In this document: positions 1 to 19,312 of the stretch, piece by piece
How positions within the stretch are numbered: position 1 is the stretch's first letter
Layout: every line of letters starts with the position of its first letter
DNA from: Sparassis latifolia
Taxonomy: Eukaryota; Basidiomycota; Agaricomycetes; Polyporales; Sparassidaceae
Assembly (NCBI GenBank): GCA_018466975.1
Contig: CM031556.1
Span: 1,364,001-1,428,000 of the forward strand
Length of the DNA stretch: 64,000 nt
Direction of reading: 5' to 3'
Made by a program: the position numbers and the translations under genes
The notes under the pieces: model-generated
The model's input: the letters and a program-made list of their open reading frames with translations, nothing else
The model's database searches: none
What the model was told of the DNA's origin: nothing

Positions 1-94
1 CGGGTTGAGCGCCAAGTAGCCAGCGGGAGGACGACCTAAAGCAATAAAGCAGATGGGACTAATAATAGCATTTCAAAAGAGGAAAGGGAGTGCA

Positions 95-98
95 CTTC
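95..98. repeat. Target site duplication, left copy (CTTC)
   Basis: CTTC abuts the left terminus and is repeated at 18661-18664 beside the right terminus. The same tetranucleotide on both sides, exactly where the inverted repeats start, supports one insertion event. Four bases alone could match by chance. Confidence 0.7.
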
Positions 99-130
99 CT
101 ATGGCGGCCGTTACTGGACAAAAATGAAAT
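99..130 (+). repeat. Left terminal inverted repeat
   Basis: This 32-bp segment matches the reverse complement of 18629-18660 except at one position (C here, T in the other copy). Similarity stops after ATGAAAT on both sides. Confidence 0.88.
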
Positions 131-160
131 TTCAGGTGTCAGGACCTTGTTTTGTACTTA

Positions 161-385
161 TGCATCGGTGTTCATTCCTGTGCATTGAGCACGTGACCTT
201 GCATGCGCATTCACCTCATGCATCGTGCATGCACAATGGTGCATGCACTGTTGGTCTCTGCAATATATGTGTTGTGCATTGTCATCTGTTTGTGCATGCA
301 TTGCTGTGCATTGCTGCACAGCTTTGATCTCGTCGCTTGTAGTTGACGATGCATGCATTGTCCTGCACTCCTCTGCATAATGTAC
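161..385. repeat. Left subterminal TGCAT-rich array
   Basis: TGCAT or ATGCA occurs more than ten times in about 220 bp, often as TGCATGCA or GTGCATTG. Short palindromic motifs repeated just inside a terminus are typical transposase-binding subterminal repeats. Open frames here are low-complexity products of the repeat, not genes. The transposase start lies downstream at 502. Confidence 0.75.
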
Positions 386-501
386 ACCCACAGTCCTGAG
401 CCTGTTGCAGTGTGGTAGCTTCGTTCCAGTCATTCCTCAGCCCTGAACTCCTGTCTTTATTCCCCATCTGGTGTGTGGATACTCTAAGGCTTCAATAACA
501 T

Positions 502-2318
502 ATGACAGATCGGCTGCACAATATCCGCTGGGCTTATTACACCCTCCATGACCGGGTGAATGTTGCTCTTAGAACGCAGGTGGGCGATGTACAGCGCTTG
601 AGCCATGTACGTTCTGAGGCTCTTGTACTGGCATCTGCAGCTGAAGTGGTCAGTTTACGTGCCTTCTACAGTCTTAGTGTTAAATTTTGATCTGTCTAGC
701 ACCGCACTGTACTCCCTCCTGCTGAATATACTCAGCTTCAATTCAACATCACTGCCATCATCGCTGACTTAGACACTGCTTCACACCTCTCATCTGATCC
801 TCCTGACCGTCCTTCTCTCATTGTTGTCCAAAAAGTTCACACGGGCAGGCGTGGCCGACCAAAGATCCTCATTGACCCCACATTCCTCAAGTTTGCGATG
901 GATCTCAGAAAGAACACAGAACTGGGCAACTTCTTCCATTGCTGTTCACGGACTGTTCGCCGTCGTGCTCTCGAGAATGAGCTGACTGTTCCAGGCTTTC
1001 CTGTGTATACAGAGGTTCAGGCTGCAGACGGTTCACTGTCACGTGAATACCACTCAAGCTCTGCCCCTACATCGACAATGTCCGATGTACAGTTAGATCG
1101 AGCTGTCGGTGACATCCTGCAGGTGTTTCCAGAGTTTGGAAGGAGGATGATTGATGGCCATCTCAAGTCTCAAGGCCATAATGTACCACGTAACCGCGTT
1201 GAGGATTCGTATGCCCGTGTACATGGCGCACCAGCAATTTTTGGATCACGTCGTCCCCTGGTTTGACGTAAGTACTCTGTACCTGGGCCACTGTCACTGG
1301 TGCATCATGATGGCCAACATGGTATGTATCACCGTCTTCTGGTTGTTGCCATACAAACTAAAGTCTGCCCAGGTCTCATACACTTCAAGCTCATCACACA
1401 CTGCTTCATTGATGGCTACTCACGCTTTGTCATTGGCATACGAGTGCACAACAATAATCGTGCTTCAACTGTACTCAATTTATTTCTGGATGCGATGGAT
1501 CGCTATGGGGTGCCCAGTCGTGTCCGTGGTGACCATGGTACGGAGAATCTTGGAGTAGCGCAGTGGATGGAGGACTGCAAGGGATTGGACAGAGGCTCAT
1601 ATATCTGGGGCCGGTGCGTCATTTCTGTGTTTTCAGAATGTACCAACACTGATGCATTTATCGTCTCAACTCCAGAAGTGTCCATAACACCCGCATTGAA
1701 CGCCTATGGGTTGATGTGACATCAGGATATGGCGAGAAGTGGCTGGTCTTCTTCTACCAGCTGGAGCTACACTGTGGCTGGGACGCTCACAATCCCGATC
1801 ATGTGTGGTTACTACACCATCTCTTTCTTCGTGCAATCAATGATGACGCACTTGAATGGGCACAGGCTTGGAACGCACACCGGATTTCATTGCAGGGCTC
1901 CCGTGCACGCAGTCCTCGTGATTTATTCATGTTCGGGATGATAGAAGAAGGCCCGCGCGGTCTGGAGCAGTTTCTGACTCCCACAGAGGATCTCGCTGGT
2001 GAATCATTGGATGAGTTTGGTATTGACTGGAGCAGTTACAGAGATGATCGGCTCATGTCTCACTTTTATGAGCACAATGCACGCGACAGCACCACCTTCA
2101 CTCCAAGCTCAGCACCTTCCCACCTTGCACAAGTGGTATGCGATGAGCCAAACTGTCCATTCACTGCTGAGGAGGTTCACGTCCTGGATGCAATCCTGGC
2201 CGACGAGTTTGACCTTAGCTCACGCAGTATGATCGTTCAGCGCTCAATTTGGGAGAGAGCGGTTGGTTTGTGTGAGGCTATAGGTCGTGGGGATCCTGTG
2301 GGCCATAGTGTTGATTAG
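502..2318 (+). pseudogene. Integrase-core (DDE, rve-like) transposase with one in-frame stop
   Basis: Probable transposase of the element, about 550 codons. Exons are 502-648, 700-1321, 1373-1613 and 1676-2318, and all junctions keep frame. The N-terminal part holds a basic GRRGRPK stretch and a helix-turn-helix-like segment (GRRMIDGHLKSQGHNV). The catalytic core follows the RNase-H integrase pattern: HHDGQHG, then D in CFIDGYSRFV, D in VRGDHGTEN, and E in VHNTRIERLW, followed by a conserved WLLHHLFL and HR region. This matches the integrase core domain family common in Agaricomycetes. TGA at 1264-1266 interrupts the frame between GSRRPLV and RKYSVPG, where relatives as I recall them have Arg; CGA to TGA would explain it. 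The copy is otherwise intact, so it may have been inactivated recently, or the stop could be a sequencing error. Confidence 0.82.
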
Positions 2319-2703
2319 ACACTACTGCTATATATCATTATCACTTGGTGATTCGTGCACCACACCGACTAAAACATGGGATGGCCCAGATTGACACATC
2401 GACATGAGGTTATCTGTCAATCATCCGGTCTGAGTATAGTAAGTTCATTGGTGCTTCCTTCAGAGAATACAAGTGTTCTCGATTCACCAAATATGTTTGG
2501 ACGATGGTTTATATTCTATATTCCTGTCTGCTATACTCACCATGAATAGAAGAGTATCCTTTTATTGGAATCAGTGGTTGAACTGATGCCGCATATTTTA
2601 CTCAGGCCTCGGCACCGCCACTCAGTTGGTCCTGTAACATCTTCACTCTTTTATCTGCCCATACTACTCTTCCCTCTTTTTCTGGCACTTTGTTCAACGG
2701 GTA
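2319..2703. other. Gap between transposase and second element gene
   Basis: About 385 bp, AT-richer than its neighbours, with no ORF of note. It probably holds the 3' end of the transposase transcript and the promoter of the gene starting at 2704. I see no repeat. Confidence 0.5.
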
Positions 2704-5595
2704 ATGGCACGCAGTGCCAGTGCGCGAGGTCGAACACAAGCTAAGGCCCCTCAGCATTGTTTAGATAGAGGTGAGCAAGCTGCTCACCGTGAGCAAGTGC
2801 GCCAGGCTGGCGCTGCTACAGTGCGACAAGGTGGAGGTGAGGTCGATTTCTCCTCATTATAGGAATCCTCATTAAGTGCTGCACTTATCCCTTTTTTTTT
2901 CCTGCTCGCTAGCTGTGACAAGGCAAAGGCAAACAAGAGCCTCCCGCGTCAATGTTGGACTTGCTGGACAATCTAGTGGGGAGGCCTTGGAACCTGGAGT
3001 AGATGAAAATTCATCAGGTATGTTATCATAATTTTTTGATGATTATCCACCTGCCTCTTTATGTACGGTGTACTAATATCCTGAGCCTCATGCAGAAAAG
3101 AATGTGAACCTTGTGATCACGGCAAGCTCTCCCTTAACAGAAGGTTAATATTGCCTTGACCTTAGTCTTATTCTGTCTCATTGTCTTTGTAGATATGGAG
3201 TCAGATGTGGAACTTGTTAATATGTCACGGGTGGAGGGGTCTCTTAGCACAGTGACCAAAATCCCAACTCCCGCTTGCCCATCGCAAAGGTCATCCACAC
3301 TGGATGATGAGAGAAGTTATGAAGGCTCACCGCCGGCAAGTCAAAGTGGGTTGGATGATAGTCGGCCGCCCTCTGAGCCTATAGTTTTTGGTCAATCTGG
3401 TTGGTCTTACATGACATGTTGCGACGTTTTACTTATCACTGCCCATAGAAACCACAGATGAATCAGAACAGATGCAGAGCATTGACACAGGACTGAATAG
3501 CCAATTGGCAGGTGCGTATGGTGATTGGTCCCTTCCCAATGACAGTTTGAGATTCAAGTGAACCTTATACTAGGCATTATAGATGTCTCGCATATGCGGA
3601 CAGCGATGTGGTTAGATGATGCGCAGCAGTTGAATCCCAACTCAGCCACCAGGATGACTACCTGGACATTTCCTCCCAATCTGTACACAGACATGACATC
3701 CGATGGGTCGCATGCAAGTAACATACTACCCGATGATATGCATGATCAGTTCTCTGTCAGTACGTTGATTCATGCCAATATGATGCTAACATATGCTGAC
3801 CAAGAGTATTGTTCTCTAGCCTCTGAAAGTGAACAGAATCCTTTTCTAATGGCCTTTGAGCAGGGTGATTCACTCGCCTTCATGGATTTGGAGTTATTTA
3901 CGGGCGCGATAGAGTCATCTTTGTTGCCTGTGGGCCATCGCCCAGATGTCGATCCTTCACTAGATCCCAAGGTTTTCAATAATCCTGCGGCAATTGAGAA
4001 CATCGCATCGACACTCACCAGTGACTTGCATTGGACAGCTACCTCTGTAAACTACCATGGGCCACCCTTCCTGCCTGCTTCTGTCCCTGCTTCTGTCGAG
4101 CAGACTGGGAGTACACTGGCCAAGGCCACTGATCAACGTTCATCCTCTGGCCTCATCGCTGCCAGTTTCAGTGAGACTGCATGCTTCTCTGATATGTCTG
4201 CCAATATTGACATCATTGATGCAACAGACAAAGCAGGACCTGTTTCAGTGCAACCTACATTCAAAATTCCACAAGTGGTTGCAAGGAACCTGTTGGCAGT
4301 TCGACCAAAATTCCATGTACCACGAGTTGGAAAAGTTCCACGCATGGGGTTTCAAGGGGACTCCGCACCCACTATGGCAAGTTTGGATTTTTTGGACCTA
4401 CTTTCACAGACGAATACAAACGAGGGTGCGAGCGGGTCTGTGCCATTACAGCATGGTGGTCAGTCAGTGGACGATAGTGGCTCCGCTAGAGCGAGAAGTC
4501 AAAGTGTCATGCTGATAGAAACACCTGGTAAGTTGGACTACGTGGTATTGTCAATGCTACATTGAAATTAAAACAGACACTCTAGATGTCGGTTGCACTC
4601 TACATTAGCATGCGATACGTGGATCCTAGCGATAAGAAGATGCCTCAGAAGACTTGGTCACATTGGCACTCCAATACCTATGTCTCATGAGGACTACGAC
4701 AGTCCTCTGACAGGATACCAGGAGTACGCACCTCTCAAGGAAGCGGTTCATGACAATGAAAGCACACTCAACCCTGTGGACCCAGGCTCAACAGATTACA
4801 GAGAGCTGTGTGAAAAGCAGCGCATCTCTCGGGGTACTCCTATCTTTGTGCTCTATATTTTTAATGACCAAGTGGGTGCTCGCATTCAGACGGATCTATT
4901 GCTGAGCCCTCATTTGCATATTTTCATTTTGTCCAGACTGCAGCATCCCCTGGCCAAAGTGGACTTGCGGTGACACCTCCTGTGCACATTGACAATTTCT
5001 TGTCTAAGTTGTACCCTGATGCCTCAGTCCGGTTACAGGCATTGGATCGATCTGAAATATTTGGAACTGCATACAAGCAGACCCAGCAAACCCTTATTCT
5101 CGCAAGGATTGCAAAAGGCCTGGGCGTGGTGCCAGGTCACAAGGAGGGAGCACAGACAAGTGAGGGTGGTTCAATTACATGGTCTGATGTAGTTGATTGG
5201 GCACCTGGGGTGGCACCATCATCAGAGAGGAATATTCGAGGTCAAGCGGTGAAGGTGCGCTCGAGAAACTGGCGCTAATATGACAGGACTGATGCAGTGT
5301 TTTGGATTAGGTTTTACAGTTCCGCGCGTGGATCCAAGCACATAGACGGTTATGGCAGCAGTCTCAGTCGGGGCCAGACAACTCTCCGCAAAATGATGAA
5401 GAGCTATTTGCATGGGTTCAATTCATAGGTCAGCCAGGTGGCCATGGGGCAGACGAGGTGCTGAATGGTTGGGGATTCCATGAACAGACTGCTGCGGGGA
5501 TGAAGGCAGCAGTCCTGCACAAACGCATTAATGCGTATTTAAAAAAGAATGCCATTAGGCTGCCTAGTATCAAGCTTACACAACTTGAATTGTAA
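2704..5595 (+). CDS. Uncharacterised element gene, many introns
   Basis: I do not recognise this protein. The reading begins MARSASARGRTQAKAP at 2704. It runs through short exons separated by typical introns (for example after GAATTCATCAG near 3017 and before ATATGGAGTCAG near 3193), then a long exon of about 3580-4520 rich in Ser, Asp and Thr. The C-terminal part is more ordered: HIDNFLSKLYPDASVR, SEIFGTAYKQTQQTLILAR, and a last exon from about 5311 with FRAWIQAHRRLW, FAWVQFIGQPGGHG and KLTQLEL, with stop TAA at 5593-5595. The low-complexity acidic N-terminus and a folded C-terminus suggest a DNA- or chromatin-related accessory protein, but that is inference. Exon edges in the middle are approximate. 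Confidence 0.6.
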
Positions 5596-5689
5596 TGCAC
5601 TCGCACAGTGCATGATGCAATAGACATTACTTTTTCGGGCACGCAGAAGTGATTGTCTGCGCCGAGGTCATCTACCGTCTACGGGTCGA

Positions 5690-7010
5690 GCTGCTGTCCC
5701 TCGGGAAGAGCGACGTGCGGCGGATGTTGTTGAGCCTGAGGAAGAGCATGAGCATGCGCTCGAGGCCGATGCTGCTGCCGACGTTTGGCGAGCAGCCCAT
5801 CTTGAACGCGTAGAGGTAGTAGCTTATCGATGCGGGGTCGAGGCCCCTCGAGCGCATCTTCTCCGTGAGCAGTGTCACATCGTGGATCCGCTGTGCCCCG
5901 GAGAGGATCTCCTCCCCGCGTATGAAGAAGTCGTACGAGTTCGAGAGCGTCTGGGCACGTCAGTTTAGCTGGGCGGTGAAAAGGTGAGAAGGAGAAAAGC
6001 ATACCGGGTCGTCGGGGTCAGGCATGATATAGAAGGGCCGGAGTGCCATGGAGAATTTAACTATGATGTAGTAGTCAGTGTCGTACTTCGCGCGGACGAT
6101 CCTTCCCAGGCGCTTCTCAATTTGGTGCTGGAAAGTGTAGACAGGTTAGCTAAGTTCAGCCGCGACCCGAAACACAACACACTTGATATCATCCAACGCG
6201 TCTCTTGGTACACCGTCCTCCACCAAGAGGTCGACCGCCTCCTTGAATGAGAGCCTGAGCATGCCCTCAGGGCCCTCGCGCCACTTGGACTCCCTCTGCG
6301 AGGATCTGCCGGTGGACCGCCGCGACCTCGGGCGCATACCGATGGCGCAGTGCGGAGAACATGTAGATTAACAGCCTGTCAAGCATCTCCATGACCTTGT
6401 GATAGTGCTCCTGGATGGCCATCTCGAGATCGAGTCCGGTGAATTCGGTCATGTGCCGGTGCGTGTTCGAGTCCTCCGCGCGGCAGATGGGCCCGATTTC
6501 GTACACATGCTCGAAGTCTGCCGTGATCGCCATCTGCTTCATGAGCTGCGGCCGTTGTGCGAGAAAGGCCATACCTGTGGACGGGCAAGAGAGAAGCGGA
6601 GATTGGTGTAGGCCGGCTGTCGGAGGGTGAGAGTAGGGCGACGGGGCGCGTACCTTTGAAGTCTCCCACCTCGAAGACCGTCGCATCGGATACCGTCGCC
6701 GTGCCCTGCAGTTTGGGACTGTGGATCTCGGTGAAGCCCCGCTCGTCGAGGTATTCGCGGAACAGGTGGCTGATGGCATGCCGCAGCTTGAATACGGCCT
6801 GGTTCGTTTGCATCTGCAAGGGGGTTCAGATGGAGTGTCAATTATTATTTGGGAAGGCTGACCCTCAAGTCGACGACACGGTTGTTCAGACATGTGTAGA
6901 GTAAAACATGCTTATACTGCACGTCATCGCTCACCTCTATCTCAGCGTCGGGGCACGTAGCATCCTCAACGCGGAAATCATTGTGAAAGGCGCACCGGAC
7001 TGGTCGAGGC
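5690..7010 (-). pseudogene. Aspartyl-tRNA synthetase fragment (cytosolic type)
   Basis: Reads as eukaryotic cytosolic AspRS, a class II synthetase that charges tRNA-Asp. Recognisable segments in order: [19 protein letters not shown] (motif 1), [31 protein letters not shown] (motif 2), [58 protein letters not shown] and [18 protein letters not shown] (motif 3) with a C-terminal FPRD. Three introns keep GT-AG ends. It is broken: the N-terminal anticodon-binding region is missing, there is a frameshift near 6300 (before KWREGPEG), and conserved glycines before motif 3 are changed (SSIGLER in place of GGIGLER). Not expected to work. Confidence 0.82.
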
Positions 7011-8275
7011 GTTGAACGCGAACCGCGGGGTGGCGGCGGCGGTGCATGAAAGCCGGCAGGCAATGGCAGCGACGATGGGCGAGAGTTAGAGGGGGAGGGG
7101 ACGCAGCGGCAGAGGACAGCGGGTGGTGAGGGATGCGCGAGCTTGAGAGCGAGCAGTTGGGGCAGGTCAAAGAAGTAGGAAGGCAATCGACGCGACTTGC
7201 CCAAATGGCTGCCACGTCACCCAAGGGAGTTCGTTTTCTGGAGCTCCAGAAAATGCATCCCTTGGTATTGCCGCCCGTGACACATTGAGCATCACTGTGA
7301 CAGCGGTCAATCACCTCGTTGTCTCCTGGCCCACTGCGGTCGCCATCCTTGCTGGCTTCGTCTCTCATGATCGACCTACTCGACCTTCTCCTTCTACCTT
7401 GTCCTGTTACCTTCTGCTCTGAGCGAAGGTAAGTTGGTGGCACGGCACAGATCGAGGTCACCTTCGCTGCCTCAATGCACTGGGCCACTTGTCCTCCTAG
7501 TAAGTCTTTCATCGGCAATCCAAATCTCGATGTAAACTAATGCACGCGCAAAATTCGACAGCTCACTCGGTGCTACAGCAGCCAATTAATGCGCGACTCG
7601 ACCTCGGGCACCTCCCTCCTCGAAATTGGCTGCCAGCGCGGCATCGTTACCGTCAGACGGAAACGCCGGCCTATGTCTTCTCCCACAACGACGTCTCTGC
7701 ACGGTAGACACTGCCTCTTTTCGCAATGCCGTGAGCTAATTTATACATCCAGCCGCTCTCTCCACGGCCGATGCCATCGCGCGCCAGCTCCTCGTGCGCA
7801 GAATTGGCCGAAACACGCACTGCAACGTGGTAGCAAACTGCTACCTTGCATGCTGTCACCCACCTCGACGTTTGAGCGTAACGCTGCCATTCCTCCCCAC
7901 TCGACACCGTCCCCGCCGTGCTGATTCTACATTACGCGATGCACCCACTTGAAAGATACCGCCCGTCACCTTCTCCGACAGTGCGCGCGTCCTGGGTGTG
8001 CAGCTCGTGCAGCTACACAATGCTTACGACGTCCGCCGTGCACCAACCATCTCTGTACAAGAAGAGTCAGTGTGGACTCAAAAAGGACGAGGACGTGATG
8101 TACGAAGGACACCGACTGGCAGCACAGGGTGCCACACGGAAGTTGCACACGACGACGGACGTCAGCATGCAAACTCACCGACGTCATCGACTCAAGTTCA
8201 GCTTCAGTGGTGGCGTCGTTGCTACCAGAGGTGGGGTCTGGCCACTTGCAGCGATACCAGTTAGGAGGAGATGAC
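7011..8275. other. Unassigned part of the captured block
   Basis: About 1.26 kb of GC-rich sequence between the AspRS and histidine kinase fragments. Open frames on both strands are short, rich in Arg, Pro and Ser, and match no family I recognise. It may be captured non-coding or heavily decayed DNA. Confidence 0.4.
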
Positions 8276-9530
8276 TGACGGACGTACAGGGCATGTGGAA
8301 GGTGCGTTCCGCCTCCTCTCGTCGACGCTCGCTGACGGCGTGCTGTAGGTGTTGGCGGACAACGTCATCTTGATGGCGATGAACTTGACGAACCGGGGGC
8401 ACTCGAGCGCGGAGGTGACCAAGCGCGCTCGCACCCCAGGTGGACAAACTGGGCCAATTCGCAAAGGAGGTCACTCGCGTCAGTCAGGAAGTCGGTACGG
8501 AAGGGTGCGCGCATCTCTGTCCTGCATCGTGTTTGTTCTCGTTGAGACTGATGTGCTTGCAGCAAACTGGGTGGTCAGGCACTCGTGCTCGACGCGGAAG
8601 GCACCTGGCGCGAGCTCATGGGCGTCGTCAACAAGCTCGCAGCGAACTTGACAAACCAGGTACGGTCCATCGCCAAGGTCACCAAGGCAGTCGCGTTGGG
8701 CGACTTGTCCAAGCAGATCGACATCGATGCACACGGCAGTTGAGCGCGTTCGCATCCGAGGTCACACGCGTCGCGTTGGAGGTAGGTACGCAGGGTATGT
8801 TGGGGGGCCAGGCACGCGTCGAGGGCGTGCAGGGTACGTGGGCGGATTTGACGAGGAACAACAACGTATATTGTTTGTTCTCCTGTTTGACGGGTTCCCT
8901 GGCTTACTGGTCCCCTCCGCCTCCCCCGGTCCATCGGGACCGACGCTGAACTGTGCAACCGCGATTTGATTGTAGAAAATGGCGACTAATTTGACGGACC
9001 AGGTGCGCTCGATATCCGAGGTCACAAAGGCCATCACGAATGGCGACCTGAGCCGGTCGGTCAACGTCGATGTGCAGGGCGAGATGCTGGATTTGAAGAT
9101 GACCGTGAACCAGATGGTTGCCCGCTTGTTGACGTTGGCGAGCGAGGTCACACGCGTATCGCTCGAGGTCGGGACCGAGGGTATCATGGGTGTCCGGCAC
9201 GGATGGCCAGGCATCCGTGCCGGATGTACAGGGCATGTGGAAGGTGCGTTCCCCCTCCTCTCGTCGACGCTCGCTGACGGCGTGCGGTAGGTGTTGGCGG
9301 ACAACGTCAACTTGATGGCGATGAACTTGACGAACCAGGTGCGCTCGATCGCGGAGGTGACCAAGGCCGTCGCCGGTGGAGACTTGATGAAGCGCATCAC
9401 GGTCGACGTGCGCGGCGAAATGCTCGACTTGAAGGTGACTGTGAACGGCATGACAGAAAGCTTGAGCGTCTTTGCTGACGAGGTCACCCGAGTCGGAAGG
9501 AGGTCAGCACGGAGGGTAAGTTGGGTGGCC
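8276..9530 (+). pseudogene. HAMP-repeat histidine kinase fragment (Nik1/Os-1 type), rearranged
   Basis: The sequence encodes repeated HAMP units typical of fungal group III hybrid histidine kinases, cytosolic osmosensing kinases upstream of the HOG pathway. Recognisable pieces: [11 protein letters not shown] (8370), FAKEVTRVSQEVGTEG (8465), [19 protein letters not shown] (8647), [16 protein letters not shown] (8750), NLTDQVRSISEVTKAI (8988), NVDVQGEMLDLKMTVNQM (9062), [15 protein letters not shown] (9305) and [17 protein letters not shown] (9401). Units are in wrong order or partly deleted, frames shift between them, and no kinase or receiver domain follows. Two copies of one unit, at about 8285 and 9235, share even the intron sequence, so part of the fragment was duplicated after capture or in the donor gene. 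Confidence 0.8.
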
Positions 9531-9559
9531 AGGCGCAGGTCATGAATGTCGGCAGCACT

Positions 9560-10513
9560 TGGAGGGTATGTAGTTCTCCACCACCGGAATGGGCACCATG
9601 CTGAACGCCGTCATCCGGCAGGATTTCCGCGTGCAAGGGAAGGAGGAGGGGCGACACGCACGAGGCGGTTGACACTCCGGTCCTCGGCGAGGACCTGGTC
9701 GAAGCACAAGATCGGCGCGAGGAAGATGATCGCTGCCCGCCGTCGGTGGATCAGCAAGCGCACACACTGGGGCAGGCGGCTTACTGTCGACTGCGGGCAC
9801 CGGAGCGGGGTCAGCAACCGCGGTTACAACGAGGACGTGAGAGCGGGCATGCACCGTCATCGAAGAACGGGACCCAGGTCTCCGCGCTGGGGGAAGACTG
9901 TGCCGGGGGAATAACGCGTCAGGTGCGGTGCGGGGAGGGAAGGAGGAGGGGGAACACTCATGGCACTGCACCGAAGGAAAAGGTGATGTGATGAACAGCA
10001 TTGAACGGCGGCGCACGAACGGGGCCCACCACGCACAGCAAGGAAATGCGGCGCATGTCGATCAGGCCCGCGGACACTACTCACCTGCGAACGCGAGCTG
10101 CCGACGTCGATGATCCGCCACTGCGTCCCGCTCTCCGAGCCGGCCTCCATCTCGAACTGGTACTCGAGGTCTTCAGCCGCGCGTTCAGCACGTCGTCTGC
10201 ACGGTCCGTCAGCGTGCAGGGCATCGCAGGCGGACGAACATGCACCGTTCGAGGGCAGGTACTGTGGTGTGGTGATGCGCTCCAGGTCGTCCAGGAAGCT
10301 GCAGCTGTCAGCACGCAGCGTCCGCGACGGAAGAAGCACAGAGAGACTCACAACCCCGAGCCGTCATCGACGCGGATCCGCTTCCATCTCAGAATCTCAC
10401 TTAGGACAGGGTCTCGCCAGAGCGCGAGCAGCTCCCCCGCGCAGGCGTGCAGCGCCGCCTGGGCGGCGTCGGCCTCGCCGCCCCCCCCGCGCTCCCGCTC
10501 CTTCTGCTTGTAG
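9560..10513 (-). pseudogene. G-protein alpha subunit fragment
   Basis: Minus-strand pieces of a heterotrimeric G-alpha of the kind expanded in Agaricomycetes: HACAGELLALWRDPVL and RWKRIRVDDGSG (helical domain, about 10360-10470), FLDDLERITTPQYLPSN (10250-10310), EYQFEMEAGSESGTQWRI followed by DVGSSRSQ (switch II region, 10090-10170; the family has DVGGxRSQR), and IIFLAPILCFDQVLAEDRS (9680-9740). The N-terminal P-loop exon is absent because the fragment is cut at about 10513, and the C-terminus decays into unreadable sequence. The switch II glycine is changed to serine. It cannot encode a working GTPase. Confidence 0.78.
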
Positions 10514-10711
10514 TTACCTATGTAAAATGTGTCTGTTTATCTCAATTAATGTACTTGAGAATTTAGTCCTTGAAAAGAGGGAGCCAATATTGTGTGAAGT
10601 ACTGACGGGTTACATGGGAATTGGATGTGCTCGCTCATGCTCGGTGGCCTCGTCACATTGTCTCCATTGTCAGATTCTGCGGCGAGAACCCTCTGAGCCT
10701 GGCAGCTCATC

Positions 10712-13700
10712 ATGACTGCCTTCAATATTTCCGACTCTGACCTGCTTGCTATTCTAGACTATGTCCGCACTCGCAAGGATGTCCCTCCTCACATTATGGC
10801 TATTCTTGAAAATGTGGACAAGGCTTCACTCCCTCCTGATGGTGTATATCCCACTCCCTCATCTTCGCACATACAGTCACCGTTCCCGATGCATGCTAGA
10901 CCATTGAACAGTCTCCCCTTACCAGTTGAGTACTCTGCTATTCATTTGACATTCTCTGACCTCTTCAGTAGGTACCGGCAGGCTCTTCAGCCCTCCCTTC
11001 TATCACGGAAGAGTCAAATGAGGGTGAAGTTGTCCTTGGTTTAATCACCATCCGGGGTGCACCCAGCCCAGGACGGGACTCACCTCCTGTTCAGCCAGGC
11101 CCCAGACTCTCACCACCTCCTCAGGCTGATGGACCTCCTGACGTTGAGAATGTCACTCAGCAAGATCAAGTGGATCAGTCTGAACGCTCGGACAACTCAG
11201 ATGGCTCGGACGACTCGATCAAGGAACCACTTGCTCAAGCTGTACGGTGTTTGGCTGGCGCCCTCCCACTTCCCAGAGATAATTGCCCACGTGGAGGGGT
11301 ACGTCCTCGCAAGCCTAGTCAACGGCGCAACCACCGACAGGGCCAACATGGTGAGCAGGATATGTTCGAGGACCATGATCTATTCGCAGGGGAGGGTGCA
11401 GAGGAAAATGAGAATGATGACGATGAGGAGCCTGGGGACCCGGCAGGATATGACAATTTGCCTAAAGGCTCACCGGCAAAGTGGGGTATTTCAGACCTTC
11501 CAGCTGCATTGAATGGGTGGCCAGGGAAGACTGCCACCAAATTCCTCTGTGACCTCATCAGTGGTGCTCATGGTAATTTCCAAGCACCGTCGGTCTCTAT
11601 GTACGTGTGCATGTTTCTGGACAAAGTAATTCACTTGAAATGATCTTACTCCTGAGTTCTAGATGGGTAGAATCAATGAAGGACCTTGTTGAAGGACGAT
11701 CATGGGATGCTCACGATGGCGCTTTCCGTACCAATGCCCTGTGGGCTCTGGTGAGCCGGGTCAGTCGTGCAGAGAAGGTTTTGTCTGGTGCAGAGTTTGT
11801 ATCGATGATGACGAAGATTCAGTTGGCGGCAAAGGTAGACAGGTATGTCATATAACCATGCTTTGGAACTTATTGCTGAGTGATTGCAGCATACAGAAAA
11901 CTCGAAACATGCAGGTCGCGAAGGGCGGGAAGATGACAATGGCACAAGTGTACAGTCTCATTTCCGAAGAACCTGATGCTCCCAAAGAGAAGACGTTCTC
12001 AGAATGGGTCGCGTTCGGTCATCGGTTTGCCGCTCTGGCAGGTGCAGGTGAGCTAAATATATTCAGACTCTACATCGCCCCACACTTGTTAAATTTGTCT
12101 CACAGGGTCGGTCTATCTACTTATGATCATCGCTGCACATGGCATGTACTCTCAGATTGGCAGGACCAAGCAGGCCACCATCTGGACCATGTGCAATTGC
12201 TTGCGATGGCCAAATCCTGGTAAGTAGTATCTTAATTGACACGACAATGCTAAAACTCCTGCAGACACTCTAATAGGCCAGCATATTCTTGGACGACTGA
12301 TTCCTCTAGTAAGCTATGTGCGCGCTCAGATCCCTCTTCGCATCTCGACCATCTTTTCGTCTCATTGGCTTCAGGCCAGTGGGCTGTCATCCAACATTGA
12401 TTGCCGGGATTTTGTATCCTCCGACAAGTTCTTTAGTATGTTCATAACCAAGTACGTCCTTCATCTATGTTGCACTGTTTTCTTTTCTACTGATATACTA
12501 TTCGATCCACAGCACTTTTCGCTCTGTGGATCGTCATTCAGAATCATGGGCGCCTTGTATGACACCCTTGACTTCTCCCTTAACTGAGCTGGAGCAAGGC
12601 ATGACTGGCGTAGACCTGATGGTGCAGAACATCCTAACGACAGCGTCCTCCACTTGTTCCACTCGACCACCGTCCACTCGAGCACCGTCACCTATGGATG
12701 ATTCCGACGATGAACATCACGCAACCACAATGGGTGTCTGCGAGAACTCTGATAATAATGATGATCTTTTTATGGTGGACGCTCAATCCAAAAAGTTCTA
12801 TACACCTGATTCCAGTTCACCTAACTACTTGGTATTTGACACTGATTTCCGTCCTCAAGCCAAAAAGAACAGAAAGGCTCCTTATCCCAAAACTGATCCC
12901 AAGGAGCGATTAGTTTGGACGGACGAGCAGCGACACTATGCAGGTGATGCATGGGTTGCCAAGACCTTAGAAAACTTTGAGGAGGGTGTATGTGATCTAG
13001 TACCATATGTTGCATCTCACGTTCACTAATCTTGGCTCAGATTCAAGAGCATTACAACAAGGACAGTGTCAAATTCGCGAACTCCTATATTTATCTAAGT
13101 CGCTCTGCCTTTGAGGGGTAAGTCTGCACGACTCATCTTGGAATAGTGGCTGATCATCCACATAGTAAGGAGATTCGTCTCAATTCTAAGGAGGGTGAGC
13201 TATTGGCCTTCATAGCCAGTGATATGTCGCAAGACATGAAGGACACCCTGGAGCGTGGTTTGCGCTCGGTCATTTTTTCAGACGGTTCTCCAGAGTATGA
13301 ACTTCAATCTATGGATTCCTCAGCTTCAACGGGGCAACACCAGTTTCCCTGTATTCATTTTTCAAGGTATGCTCGGCATATTACCCGTGTAAGTCATTTT
13401 GATATTTGTCCTTATTGTTCTTGATTTGATGATAGAAACACAGGGAGACGATGCACCTACCAATATTCATCCTTTGTTTCTATACAAGGTTGAGCGTGGA
13501 CACACAAATCATCATCAATTCACGCCGTACTTCTCCAAAGAATTGTGGGAGCATGAGGAAGAGTACGATAGCCTGAGTAAAGTCTTTGAAGAGTTTTGTG
13601 AATGGATGCAAGCTAAAGTGAGCTTCATTCTTCTTTGTTATATCGGCTTCTCTGAATGTTTTTACTTTATGAGATTCATCAGCGGCTGCCAGAAGTATAC

Positions 13701-14069
13701 AAAAGCCTTGAAATATTTGCTGAGGTGCTTCCTGGCAGAGAGGTCTCACCCTGTCATCCATTCACTAGCATGGTTCTTAACATGAACGTTGTTACGCATG
13801 TTCATCGTGATGTCAAGGACTTGAAGGCATGTTTAGTTTTGGTGCTTGGTGACCATACTGGTGGGGACCTGTGCTTGGTAGAGCCCGGTCTGGTCTTCCC
13901 ACTTCGTGCTGGGGACCTGGTGGTATTTCATTCTGGAGATGTCACTCACTTTAATCTTCACTACCGAGGAGAAAGGGCCTCTCTTGTCCTCCATTCAGAT
14001 GCTGAAGGAAAATATTGGCAGGAGGATCAGATGGGCTGGAAGGATAATGCTTATATGGCTGTAGCATAG
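10712..14069 (+). CDS. Multi-exon protein with C-terminal TET/JBP-like 2OG-Fe(II) dioxygenase domain
   Basis: The N-terminus (MTAFNISDSDLLAILDYV) is followed by a Pro/Ser/Asp-rich linker (about 11040-11450). Next come a folded region (WGISDLPAALNGWPGK, FSEWVAFGHRFAALAGAG), another acidic linker (12600-12900), and a region from WTDEQRHYAGDAW to FEEFCEWMQAK. The last exon (about 13682-14069) carries the double-stranded beta-helix: TSMVLNMNVVTHVHRDVKD with the iron ligands H and D, then GGDLCLVEPG, PLRAGDLVVFHSG, the distal ligand H in THFNLHY, and the 2OG-binding R in GERASLVLHSD. This pattern resembles the TET/JBP dioxygenases that oxidise 5-methylcytosine or thymine, a family expanded in Agaricomycetes and linked to transposons. 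Activity on DNA is inference. Several exon junctions, especially near 10930-11000, are uncertain. Confidence 0.75.
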
Positions 14070-14252
14070 GACTCAAATGTCTGACTTGGTTGTTTGCAAC
14101 TTGTTTAGCTGGTGATGCCATTAATATGATTGAATGCATGACATTTAACGCGATGGATGCTCAAGATAGGTAATGGTGAAGTCACGAATATCTATAATCC
14201 AATTTATTGAATCGCTCAGAGACAAACTGCTTCAATAGTAAGGTGCCCTAGA

Positions 14253-17200
14253 TTATATTTTATTGAAACCATCTCCCGCCATTAGTGGCCCGTGCATCCA
14301 TGCGTCAAAGTAGAGAGCATGATCAGGCCCATCAACCTCCTGAAGTAACAGGTTCTGCAAACCTACATCCATCGTGACCTTGCCCTGCATGAAGCACGCA
14401 GAATATAATATTGGTGTGATCTACGTAGTGGATTGTCAGGTAAACAGCCTGGACAAGACAACATTAATAATGCCAGCGCATACCTCCTCTGCATTATTCA
14501 GATGTGCCCCTCCATCTTGATATGACGAGGCATGGGTAAATGAGAACTGACAAAGAGAAACTGTAAGAAAATGTCATCTTGACTACGGAAGAGATAAGTA
14601 CTAACCTTCAGCTTCCAGTGTTCCCCCAGGGGCAGCAGGTCTGACCCCGTCATAACTTGGAGCAATAGGCGCACACGATGAACCACATTCTCGTGCTCCT
14701 TCATATACATATCTTCTGGTACAATTTCTCCGCGTATCCACTCATGGTCAGGGTGCCCTTTTCCATGCAAATATCGTATTAGTAGCTCTGCAAACCTGAG
14801 CTCATGTTGTCGCTCCACCTCGGTCTGTTGATCTTCCTTGTCGTTGCTAAATACCAGGTGAGTAATTACATCATTCACATGGATCACCCGACGATTATAC
14901 AGGGCCCCAAGCAAGGCTTTGGTACGCCCCTCCATTGTCTTCATCATAGACATTAGCATCAAGGCATGAGAGAGAACATTGGTAAGCATACCTTTCGTAT
15001 GTCCTGACTGGGACGTAGTTGAAAGTTAAGACCCTCCCTAAATGCCAACAAATCTGGGTGATGCGTGGGATCGATGTGACCCAAGAGGACACGCAACACA
15101 AGGGTACGCTCCACCCCATTTCGCTCTGCTTCATCCATACCCTCAAGGCTCAGTGCTTCAATCTGACAGAACGTATAAGTAATATCCAAGCACACTTGTT
15201 CCGAGAGAGGAACTGGACGCACCACAATATCAGCCTCTATCAGAAGTGCACCCAAGTCTGTTTTTGGGTCAGTCGTCAAAGGGGAGGTACCATTCCAGTC
15301 ATACCAAGGCTGAAGCACAGCAAATTGGCCAGGATCAAGAGAAAGTATGAATTCACGATCGATGAGAATGTTAGAGCGGCCATCAATGACTGCCTGAAGC
15401 AGAAAGGGAGAAACAGGTTCAGGCCCCTGACCTAGGTTGACAAGATGCATTAGACATAGGAACCCATATGCTTTGAGGATACAGTCGCGAGTCCTGAAAT
15501 GGTCTGTGGAGCTGTGGAACACAAGAGACTTATATACTCCCTTCTCCACCCAAAAGCGCACTTCAGATGTTATTTGCGCGATGGCATCACGAAGTACTGC
15601 TTTCTCGGGAGCTGCACCCACACCAACATTGCTATCAGCATGGATCAGAGCCAATAATAAGGGGCATAGTGATAGACTTACACCTCAAACACTCGCTTGG
15701 ACGACAGAAGAGCAGCAAGTGGAACAAAACTGCACACCACACCTGGCAGAGCCCTCTCCAGGGCCGCTTCGAATTGATGATAAGGAGCTGGTGGGCTCGC
15801 AAAGTGCCATAAGAGCAGGAACTGAAGTGCCCTGGCCGCCAGAGATGTTGTGGAGGCTTGGATGAATACTTCCGTAGACTCATCAATATTAATTGGCAAG
15901 TTTGCGCGCACAATATTCTGCCATTCCCCAATGTCTTCTGCTTCAGCAGGAATAAATGGAACAGAATCCCGAGAGATTGGCGGATAGACCTTGATAAACC
16001 GCAAACAGTCAATTCCTCTACCGCATATTCCATAGCACCTTGGAACGATTCCGATTAGATGCTGCTCACCTCAGTAGATGCACCTGTGCAAGCAGGTCCA
16101 CGATGTTGGCCAATGTCAGATGCCTGTCCAACAGACTATTATGATGAGTGCTCTTACAATAAATGGATGGTGCCCCTTACCTCTGTTTCGATAACATCCA
16201 TACCAGCATTGACATGTTCTAAGCGACGACGGGCACTTGGACGTGACTGCTGTGGTCCAACAATGAAAAAGCCTTGTGATTAACTGTACCCACTGTATTA
16301 ATGGATTGCACGAACCTCTGACTCATGTGAGCGTGTGCGTCTCCGAAGCTGGTGCTGAGGTGTAACTTCCGCAATGACAGCAGATCCTCTCTGGTCTGCA
16401 GCTGTCCTACGGTGGTGATTCTAGTTGTCGCTGATCAACTTCTGTTACTCTGTGAAGGATCAAGCCTTACCCTCTGACCATATGCCATGATGCCATCAAT
16501 GGTATCAGGAAGCTGCATGGGGATTGTGTCAATCATAATAGACCTTTGTGCGAGTTAAGGTGGTAGACATACACTCTCGTCAGAAGAAGACATAGAGTTG
16601 TCATCAATATTATCCTGAACAGCCCTCCGCGAAACATGGCTGTCAGGAACTGAGGCCATAGACTGGGAGACCAAATCGTGTGCACAGTCCTCCCGGCACT
16701 GAACAGGATCACCACGACTTCCCGCCAGGGACATGACACGTGAGGGAAAACATCGATGCGGACGATTGCAAAATTGAATTGTAGTGTCAACTGGATGTTC
16801 AGCCAGTAGACGTTCCAGTGGACTACGGAGGTTCCCATATCTTGGTGCTATCGTACAAATCAATAAGTTCAATAAATTGCATGCAGTAATTGTGCTCTCT
16901 CACCGATAAATAAGATGAGTTCAGGGCCATATTCACAGTGGTTCGGTATCGTTTGGCCAAATGGAGCTGACTTCAGCTTCGCAAGTGTGAAGTTGGTTGG
17001 GGTCATGTCAAGATAAGGCAGATAGTTCTTTTGACCTCGTCGTCCACCTGGGGTGATAAGCTGCCATGCGAGTGTTGAAGGAGCACGAGGAGTTCCGGAA
17101 GAACGCTGGGCAAGCGTAATCTCAAACAGCTCACAATGCTCAATTATCTGCTGGTCAAAGGCATCCCAGACAGGACCATCGACCACTCTAAAGTCAATTT

Positions 17201-18270
17201 GGAAGAGCAAATTAGCTTGACCAAGAGTGCGCTGAACAGCGGCAACTTGATCTCCATCCCACTTGTATTCGGAGATGCTTCATCCGGAGCAGAGTAAACA
17301 GATCCATGGGGCTATTGCACAAATATTAGAATTATCCTGACAGGCAGGCAGTCAAAAAGCTCACCACAAATGGCAGAAACCCCACCATAAAGCTCGTATG
17401 CATTTCATCCTGCCCGGTGCTACGAGGAGCTCCTGCACTGGTGCTTTGAGTGGTCGCAGCAGCACGAAAGCGCTGAGTCACAGTGGTAGATGTGCCACGG
17501 CGTACAGTCGCAGCATTGAGTTCCCCAGAGGCTCGTGCAGCCCGAGAGGATGGACGCTGGTGTCGTTGATAACTTTCGACACGACGATCATTTGCCGTGC
17601 CAGGATGCATTGTACGGAGGCCTGCATATGCAGCAATTGGAGGTATCGTGGAAACAGGCAGGGTCACTGCAGGAACAGGAATGCGTGCAACGCGTGCCAT
17701 ACTATGTGCTAGAGTTGGAGAATGCTCTAATCGGTGTACAGCAGAATGGACGTGGTTCCGCCTGCTCCAAGATTTTAGCATTAACAGAGTGATAAGAAGA
17801 AGAGAAGACGTACCTTGCCTTGGGAGTACTTAGACTTTGATGCATACGCCACGCAATGCCACACTCACACACAGTGGTTACGGACCAGCTCTCTTGCAAC
17901 TATTAATCAAGCATAAACCTTGGTAGACAAGTTGTAGACCAAAAGAACCACGCACCGAAAAGAAACCACCACAGCCTGTCTCCGATGAGCCGCCCTTTGC
18001 TAATTCCACTGCAGCACCATGACCAGAGGCCACAGCTCGAACAGTATGATAGATCCATCCGTGATCACATCCGGAGCACAGCTCCTGTGGATCCTTGGCT
18101 TCCTGGAATGACGTGATAAGAAGCATACACTAGAGCATGAGAGTACGTGAGCATACATATCGAGGGGGTTGTCCTGATAAAAGGACCACAAAGACAACAC
18201 AGCCTTGGCAGTTAGAGTGCACACAATCATCTCGCTTTGGTAGCTTAAGTCCATCAGCAGCGGTCGACAT
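14253..18270 (-). CDS. Large Cys-rich protein of an Agaricomycete family, function unknown
   Basis: Reads inward from the right end of the element. Start MSTAADGLKLPKRDD at 18270, with an intron after QPPRY. Exon 2 has a probable zinc-binding segment, LCSGCDHGWIYH, followed by a TGCGGFFS motif. A second Cys/His pair follows at VCECGIAWRMH (about 17830-17880). Further exons read FRVVDGPVWDAFDQQIIEHC, SPLERLLAEHPVDTT, CFPSRVMSLAG, FIPAEAEDIGEWQ, VYKSLVFHSSTDHFRTRD, LLGHIDPTHHPDLLAFREG, VRLLLQVMTGSDLLPLG and FSFTHASSYQDGGAHLNN. The last exon ends MHGPLMAGDGFNKI with stop at 14253-14255. The segment around TGSDLLP resembles a large uncharacterised Agaricomycete family that I know only by pattern. 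Cys clusters also accompany KDZ transposases, but I find no KDZ core here. Introns are many and some edges are approximate. Confidence 0.65.
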
Positions 18271-18344
18271 GTTAGACTCAACAATAGTGGTAGAAATCAA
18301 AAGCGTCAACGTACTCTCTTCTCTGGCACACTATGGATGCAGCC

Positions 18345-18625
18345 TGTGCATTTGATGCATACAGTGCATACAGTGCATGATGTGAATGAGGATGCACACA
18401 GTGAACATGCCAATTGGCATGTCTACCAAGGTGCATCCTGATTACTCCATGCTTCCGGACCCGGCCCAGGAATGCATACCTGTGCATGCATGCACAATGC
18501 ACAACTGTGAGCAGCAATGCACGCGTGATATATGATGCAGAGTTATGCGCACCTATGAACACCAATGAATGGCGATGAATGAGCGTGAATCTCGATGATG
18601 CACGGTGAATGCCGATGCAAACCCA
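18345..18625. repeat. Right subterminal TGCAT-rich array
   Basis: This is the counterpart of the left array: many TGCAT/ATGCA motifs, including GTGCATACAGTGCATGATG and TGCATGCATGCAC, just inside the right inverted repeat. Similar ATGCAT motifs continue for about 70 bp outside the element (18669-18740). The minus-strand gene starts just upstream at 18270, so the array may also hold its promoter. Confidence 0.75.
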
Positions 18626-18628
18626 AAC

Positions 18629-18660
18629 ATTTCATTTTTGTCCAATAACGGCCGCCATAG
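18629..18660 (-). repeat. Right terminal inverted repeat
   Basis: Inverted copy of 99-130 with one mismatch. It is followed directly by CTTC at 18661-18664, the second target duplication copy. Confidence 0.88.
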
Positions 18661-18664
18661 CTTC

Positions 18665-19312
18665 CTCCTATGCATACCGTGATGCATCCGCTATACATGA
18701 ATATGCATCCTGAATGCACAATCTAATGCACGTGTAGACTGTACTATGACTATAGGTGAGTGTGCATCACACTCGGCTTACAGTCTTAGGTATATTATGC
18801 AACAATATGGCATGTACGCCTGGACGTTCACCTGGGATCAACGCGGCACAGTGCTGTGGCCGTTGCAGCGCTGAGCGCTGACGCGTCTTATTCTGGTTTG
18901 GGAGGCGCACGCATTCGCTAGTTCTGCACTGCTGCTCTCTGCATGAGACTCGTTCTGCGGAAAAAGAAATCAGAGCGAAATCGGCCCGTTGAGCTTTTCA
19001 ATCGTTCCTGAAAAGTTCTCATGGAGTTCTGACGCCCATCACGAATATTAGTAGTTCGACTCGAGACTCGCGGCCATCTTGACCAAGGGGCGTGCGTCGC
19101 CCCAACATCAGACACCGTGTACTCAGTTAATCTCATCTGTTCGCCATCTGTCATTCGCGATGCAACTCAAGACAAGCTTTCAGATCCAGTGATATTTCGC
19201 AAGGAAAGATCACGTTTATCCAACAGAAAATTGTACATCTACCAGTAAGTAATGCGACTTCTACAGAACACACAAGGTATTTGCTGTATTTGCTGTAACG
19301 ACACCACAGCCT
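18665..19312. other. Intergenic sequence right of the transposon
   Basis: The first 75 bp carry several ATGCAT or TGCAC motifs like those of the subterminal arrays although they lie outside the inverted repeat. They could be the remnant of an older related element. The rest shows no gene. Confidence 0.5.

Follow-up and report, generated by a model that had tools for sequence, protein, structure and literature searches.

The stretch of DNA analysed here, called the window in the following, covers 64,000 nucleotides of Sparassis latifolia (C5:1364001-1428000, in a genome of 41.4 Mb and 22 contigs; C5, C7 and similar names denote contigs), and its positions 100-18659 are very probably an IS3EU-type DNA transposon that moves by cut and paste, in the manner proposed below. 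The class as such is known; it is the partner gene, the host lineage, the dioxygenase lineage and the captured cargo that make the window element a variant of it. The coordinates of the features are collected in Table 1.

The original prediction, made from the letters of the window, had proposed a transposon with terminal inverted repeats (TIRs) at positions 99-18660, with 32-bp termini differing at a single position. The two arms (99-130 and 18629-18660) are in fact 97% complementary (31/32). When the 32-base pattern was searched with up to 3 mismatches in the whole genome, the terminus was found at 8 places, which pair into 4 facing pairs, and the reversed pattern, used as control, gave 0 matches, in full agreement with a TIR transposon. 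Counting the outer arm base, the pairs span 18,562 bp in the window, 20,191 bp on C7, 1,678 bp on C11 and 1,293 bp on C12. The C7 copy (C7:1657220-1677410) is 98-99% identical to the window copy across three long blocks, and the short C11 and C12 copies, which may be internally deleted copies, resemble the large ones near the ends only, their interior DNA being their own. The subterminal arrays that had also been noticed stand out clearly, since TGCAT, with both strands counted, occurs 54 and 56 times per kb in them vs 3.75 in the interior and 2.67 in the right flank.

The size of the target-site duplication (TSD), by contrast, had to be revised. The CTTC on both sides had been read as a 4-bp duplication, which was rejected once all four copies were compared in register: the outermost base of each 32-bp arm is part of the duplicated target, and therefore the duplication is of 6 bp and the ends of the element are TATGG..CCATA. 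As read from the flanks, the 6-bp duplication is exact in the copies on C7 (GCATGT), C11 (GCGACC) and C12 (GTCATG), and 5 of 6 bases are alike in the window copy. The TIRs of the window's family measure 31-32 bp.

Table 1. Features of the element and of its immediate flanks, in positions of the window.
Feature	Position	Strand	Remarks
IS3EU-type transposon (probable), termini TATGG..CCATA	100..18659	+	8 terminus copies forming 4 facing pairs; second copy of 20.2 kb on C7
Left target-site duplication, ACTTCC	94..99		5/6 match to the right one; flank reading
Right target-site duplication, GCTTCC	18660..18665		Flank reading
Left terminal inverted repeat	100..130	+	
Right terminal inverted repeat	18629..18659	-	
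Left subterminal TGCAT/TGCATGCA array	133..500		20 TGCAT over 368 bp, counting both strands
Right subterminal TGCAT/TGCATGCA array	18360..18628		15 TGCAT in 269 bp
Transposase gene, PF24764 rva_4, DD34E	502..2318	+	Exons drawn by eye; in-frame stop before the catalytic core
340-aa open frame	3543..4565	+	In the C5 and C7 copies only; stop in the C7 version
Aspartyl-tRNA synthetase piece	5671..6976	-	Parent C5:1508887-1510196, 91%; PF00152 match
HAMP-repeat histidine-kinase-type piece, rearranged	8276..9626	+	Parent C3:1354228-1355805, 94-97%, three blocks; HAMP matches
G-protein alpha subunit piece	9645..10509	-	Parent C10:4077778-4078631, 84%
Putative TET/JBP-like 2-oxoglutarate-Fe(II) dioxygenase gene	11693..14069	+	Exons and 5' limit by eye; catalytic core 13656-14069, HRD..H..R
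Gene B, conserved second gene	14501..17279	-	Inward from the right end; exons drawn by eye

The DDE integrase-like gene expected to read inward from one end lies at the left end, and two of its open frames match PF24764 rva_4 with E values of 7.3e-29 and 1.4e-18. The transposase frame is damaged in each of the two large copies, the C7 copy through two 1-bp deletions and the window copy through its stop, and because of this stop the window copy is, judging from its sequence, probably immobile now unless helped. In this genome 21 exons match PF24764, spread over about ten loci. Three of these loci, on C2, C10 and C13, have the left TIR, TATGGCGGCCTGTTCTGGACAAAAT, about 1.2 kb ahead of the transposase core, compared with 1.28 kb in the window. 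A looser terminus pattern, with 28 genomic matches and 0 in the control, gave the right ends of two elements of this sister family (family 2), C2:1422028-1439487 and C10:1491781-1509263, both of about 17.5 kb, flanked by exact 6-bp duplications (CTTCTC and GTATAG, respectively) and with transposase and gene B laid out as in the window element; on C13 the terminus patterns found the left end and no right end. Further relatives are a 7.1-kb pair of family-2 ends at C8:383100-390204, one end of which is changed to CATGG, and a 21-kb element at C11:492540-513579, with termini alike at 26/32 positions, one deviating end (TTTGAGG), an rva_4 transposase and a relative of gene B. Overall, the TATGG..CCATA ends are present in the window copy and in the C7, C11, C12, C2 and C10 elements, and the duplication is exact in 5 of the 8 terminus-paired elements (C7, C11, C12, C2 and C10). 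Thus the termini do recur around a similar transposase, which is the same one in the C7 copy and a related one in the sister family. As a separate observation, a terminus-like repeat, TATGAGGGACCGTACTGGACAAAA, occurs at 7 places including C9:568192, one of them 3.6 kb from an rva_4 gene, which suggests a third family.

In the transposase frame of the C10 family-2 element no lesion was seen by eye. The joined protein matched rva_4 at 4.4e-56 and, directly before the core, HTH_21, a helix-turn-helix (HTH) family, weakly and under the cut-off (E 0.054); its second D and the E are separated by 34 residues. At least 348 relatives were present among 7,993 scored candidates, and 32 were hand-picked from 120 listed. 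Each of the 32 has a match to rva_4 and 31 have one to rve (E 0.1), and at E 1 the NCBIfam families IS481 and IS3 are matched by 29 (best 2.2e-14) and 28 (best 1.5e-9) of them, respectively. In the alignment of these relatives H-H-D, G-D-H-G and R-I-E-R either do not vary or reach a conservation of at least 90%. The 19 families matched by them at E 0.1 include several weak HTH matches and no integrase zinc-domain family. Among the matches listed, a transposase of S. crispa shares 88% identity with the family-2 protein, the alignment covering 88% of the latter. In the PDB no solved relative was found by sequence, and none by profile at E 0.01; the monoglyceride lipase structures returned for the sequence (E 0.5) had no support from the profile at this threshold and were discarded.

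Gene B reads towards the transposase from the opposite end, and counterparts are found at the same place and on the same strand in the C2 and C10 elements (45-58% amino acid identity by piece), with weaker ones on C11, in the same layout, and on C9, in a different one. Between the two families, the non-synonymous (dN) and synonymous (dS) divergence was 0.21 and 2.42 in transposase exon 2 and 0.21 and 3.77 in the gene B core; in exon 4 dN was 0.13 and dS not computable. Since dN is 0.21 against a dS above 2, both genes were long under purifying selection. The protein search returned at least one relative, P0121 of S. crispa, which is identical or nearly so to the gene B exons of the window where aligned, and 71-90% identical over whole frames including intron letters. 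Gene B had no Pfam match at E 1 and no convincing match in the PDB. With this result we discarded two candidate identities: an alpha-kinase, whose family PF02816 occurs at 2 genomic places, neither inside an element found, and a HECT-like protein, an impression gained by eye, for which a single PDB match at E 0.58 was taken as chance.

The original prediction stood as regards the transposase, and it had overlooked gene B, the captured host fragments, the CpG decay described below and a further gene, which lies between transposase and gene B in the orientation of the former. On sequence grounds we name its product TET/JBP-like, and from this likeness we infer its enzymatic activity. Four relatives were found (P0122-P0125), from S. 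crispa, Ganoderma sinense, Suillus subluteus and one JGI protein; three of them match Tet_JBP, all under the cut-off, and the S. crispa one has no match. HRD, THFN and RAS are aligned in those relatives that cover the region, and the exon at about 12778-12987 also adjoins dioxygenase relatives on C9 and C6. The core frame is open in both large copies, with 3 non-synonymous differences, 1 synonymous difference and no stop between them. Upstream of it, within the gene as drawn, an insertion of 1.4 kb is present in the C7 copy (window site about 13399-13408); it has inverted termini, recognised by eye, and a duplication of 9 bp, TGATATTTG. Bromodomain structures matched by the dioxygenase query in the PDB (best E 0.0018) were judged chance, partly because they rest on a tag-like start, and so was a ribosomal-protein match of its profile (E 0.46).

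A different TET kind is abundant in this genome. Out of 44 PF12851 Tet_JBP matches, 32 are over the cut-off; six frames were aligned, the other five being 86-92% identical to the first, and the one tested matches CcTet in the PDB at 4.5e-22, which the dioxygenase of the element does not. Because of the number of matches, this identity and the likeness to CcTet, the abundant TETs suggest a multi-copy TET-bearing transposon, possibly Kyakuja. As to the lineage of the element's own enzyme, PE-type TETs have HxE and the window exon has HRD, that is HxD, so it is not of PE type; AG-type TETs are CcTET-like, and since no match to CcTET was detected at E 1, it is probably not of AG type either.

The original prediction knew of no defined element for this integrase-core family. 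The features fit IS3EU, a superfamily that Repbase has included since 2013 according to PMC10045372. The traits given for it in PMC12730594 and PMC10045372 are a 6-bp TSD, TIRs longer than 30 bp and TA..TA ends of the form TAYGG..CCRTA, and all of these are found in the window element. With IS3EU/GingerRoot, as treated in PMC10045372, the elements described here share TA..TA termini, 6-bp duplications and an IS3/IS481-related DDE core, and the first catalytic D, residue 257 of the family-2 protein, falls in the published range of 100-300. The large ones measure 17-21 kb and contain several genes. The closest known system is the TET-bearing IS3EU elements reported in December 2025 (Kojima 2025, PMC12730594) from Tuber indicum and from seven species of Pucciniales. 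As described there, these have a 6-bp TSD, the transposase at one end, a central TET gene, in transposase orientation in three published families, and an opposing gene at the far end, and the Pucciniales families have TIRs longer than 30 bp ending in TAYGG..CCRTA, as here. By contrast, the opposing gene of all the TET-bearing elements it describes is an alpha-kinase, where the window element has gene B, and the window element belongs to a Polyporales genome and contains captured fragments of host genes.

Kyakuja transposons (KDZ) are also DNA transposons of Agaricomycetes in which a TET/JBP gene is found. Their families are described in PMC12730594 as having no TIRs and 7-bp TSDs, whereas the window element has TIRs and 6-bp TSDs. 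That survey places TET genes of Polyporales in Kyakuja only, and Sparassis goes unmentioned in its main text. IS3EU is recorded in Ganoderma leucocontextum (PMC8955403), and S. crispa, the source of several of the protein relatives, belongs to Polyporales. We found neither this element nor gene B described in the literature consulted, which also yielded no integrase-core transposon of Agaricomycetes and no pairing of HECT with an integrase; an unnamed Repbase entry may exist. The hallmark of Starships is a tyrosine recombinase captain; here a DDE gene and TIRs are present.

Three stretches between the transposase and the dioxygenase derive from host genes. The parent of the aspartyl-tRNA synthetase piece shares the contig of the element, some 126 kb away from its right end, and the parents of the other two pieces are on other contigs. 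The HAMP-repeat parent on C3 is presumably a histidine kinase, judging from such repeats, and one 148-bp part of the piece derived from it is present twice; the frames of the G-alpha parent, joined by eye, match PF00503 at 1.7e-25. The captured fragments are broken and incomplete and are best seen as passengers. The alignment of the synthetase piece to its parent continues through stretches that, judged by eye, are intron-like, and therefore the copying took place at the DNA level. Pack-type elements (Pack-MULEs) are similar in that fragments of unlinked host genes, apparently including introns, are enclosed between their TIRs; they belong to another superfamily, and here the captured DNA is part of a large element that has genes of its own. 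The DNA searches for parents covered the element outside 401-5599 and 7401-7899. Between 10400 and 18350 they found no further host parent, returning the edge of the G-alpha parent and the divergent dioxygenase relatives on C9 and C6. Weaker and shorter matches exist elsewhere in the genome, among them two short ones to C8:1201984-1202169 (81 and 93%) for window 8175-8275, which may be a fourth captured piece. The 340-aa frame had no Pfam match at E 0.1 and matches in the two large copies only.

The two large copies differ by 214 substitutions in 18,540 aligned bases (1.2%). Transitions account for 204 of them, and 162 fall in CpG, where only 20% of C+G lie; the C-to-T or G-to-A changes at CpG number 73 in the C5 copy and 89 in the C7 copy and are densest in the CpG-rich captured block. 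The rate of CpG transitions is lowest at TCG, 0.036 per site vs 0.08-0.13. For the element without its captured block the observed/expected ratio of CpG is 0.59; the block itself has 1.08 and the right flank 0.98. The 5 kb to the left of the window (C5:1359001-1364000) are equally low at 0.59, resembling old transposon DNA, so that the element is not alone in its low CpG. Relative to their parents, the captured stretches have lost CpG far more often than the reverse, by 40:7 in the synthetase, 21:1 in the kinase and 20:2 in the G-alpha piece. Divergence so dominated by CpG would be a scar of methylation type.

According to the mechanism that we propose, the transposase would bind the TIRs, and probably also the TGCATGCA subterminal arrays, excise the element and join it to a 6-bp staggered cut of the target, with gene B as its needed partner. 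The dioxygenase would oxidise 5-methylcytosine made by the host on the element, delaying both silencing and the loss of CpG, and the host fragments could have entered through template copying during gap repair.

The same decay could be due to active hypermutation similar to repeat-induced point mutation (RIP) instead of slow deamination of 5-methylcytosine, and the predominance of transitions and of CpG sites is what such a process would leave. We consider it unlikely, since the changes are distributed over both copies and concentrated in the captured block, TCG is avoided, unlike the TCG pattern cited for Pucciniomycotina in PMC12730594, and the copies are so little diverged. A stronger objection regards the cargo: the dioxygenase, the 340-aa frame and the host fragments might all be accidental passengers or remains of nested insertions, the transposase and gene B being the only working parts. 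An exon-by-exon search found no PF12851 match inside the C2 and C10 family-2 elements, the host fragments are incomplete and the dioxygenase match is below threshold, so that this is a possibility to be taken seriously, although we do not regard it as the probable one: the dioxygenase core has stayed open in both copies, it has relatives in Ganoderma and Suillus, and the published IS3EU families of PMC12730594 have TET genes at the same place. Elements of Ginger-like type, or of a new superfamily with 4-bp duplications, would explain the CTTC beside both arms and the integrase-like transposase, and are very improbable, because a shift of one base turns these flanks into the 6-bp duplications found in most of the elements and because the ends are TA..TA. 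That two inverted repeats face each other by chance in ordinary host DNA, for which no supporting point was found, is next to inconceivable given a second copy of 20.2 kb and two short ones at unlinked sites, with duplications, and a CpG content so far below that of the right flank.

Several observations weigh against the IS3EU reading or against parts of it. The assignment relies on hallmarks given in the literature and on matches to IS3/IS481 profiles rather than on the IS3EU proteins of Repbase, and a clear 6-bp duplication was not found in 2 of the 8 elements examined, the 7.1-kb one on C8, which shows none, and the 21-kb one on C11. The dioxygenase frame at 13656-14069 matches PF12851 Tet_JBP at E 7.8e-7 with 28.9 bits, below the cut-off of 34.9; neither its sequence nor its profile finds any TET structure, CcTet included, in the PDB at E 1; and its profile, compared with six of the CcTet-like TETs of the genome, gave E 0.004 and a probability of 8%, with HRD aligned on HRD. 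The AlphaFold models of the dioxygenase relative P0124 and of gene B were unusable, with a mean predicted local distance difference test (pLDDT) score of 40 and 37, respectively. Finally, the exons of the C5 and C7 copies, drawn by eye, differ by 8 synonymous and 21 non-synonymous changes, 4 stop codons and 5 gapped codons; these differences look neutral, as expected of silenced copies. On balance, the window holds a well-supported IS3EU-type element that is probably decayed.

More tentatively, and short of an even chance in our estimate, the elements could represent an Agaricomycete branch of IS3EU, large in size, with a core transposase facing gene B, in which some members would have added a further TET/JBP-like type that shields them from CpG methylation; host genes would be copied into them as DNA, their long-lived parts being CpG-poor and the captured DNA having normal CpG but losing it. 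With the window element and its relatives, the integrase-core (rva_4) proteins of Agaricomycetes can be linked, within a single genome, to elements with concrete boundaries, several copies and target duplications, and IS3EU-type elements bearing a putative dioxygenase are extended to mushrooms, with a different partner gene. The presence in one element of CpG-poor DNA of its own and of CpG-rich captured DNA, which is measurably losing CpG against its parents, offers a natural test of whether transposons use enzymes of demethylation type.

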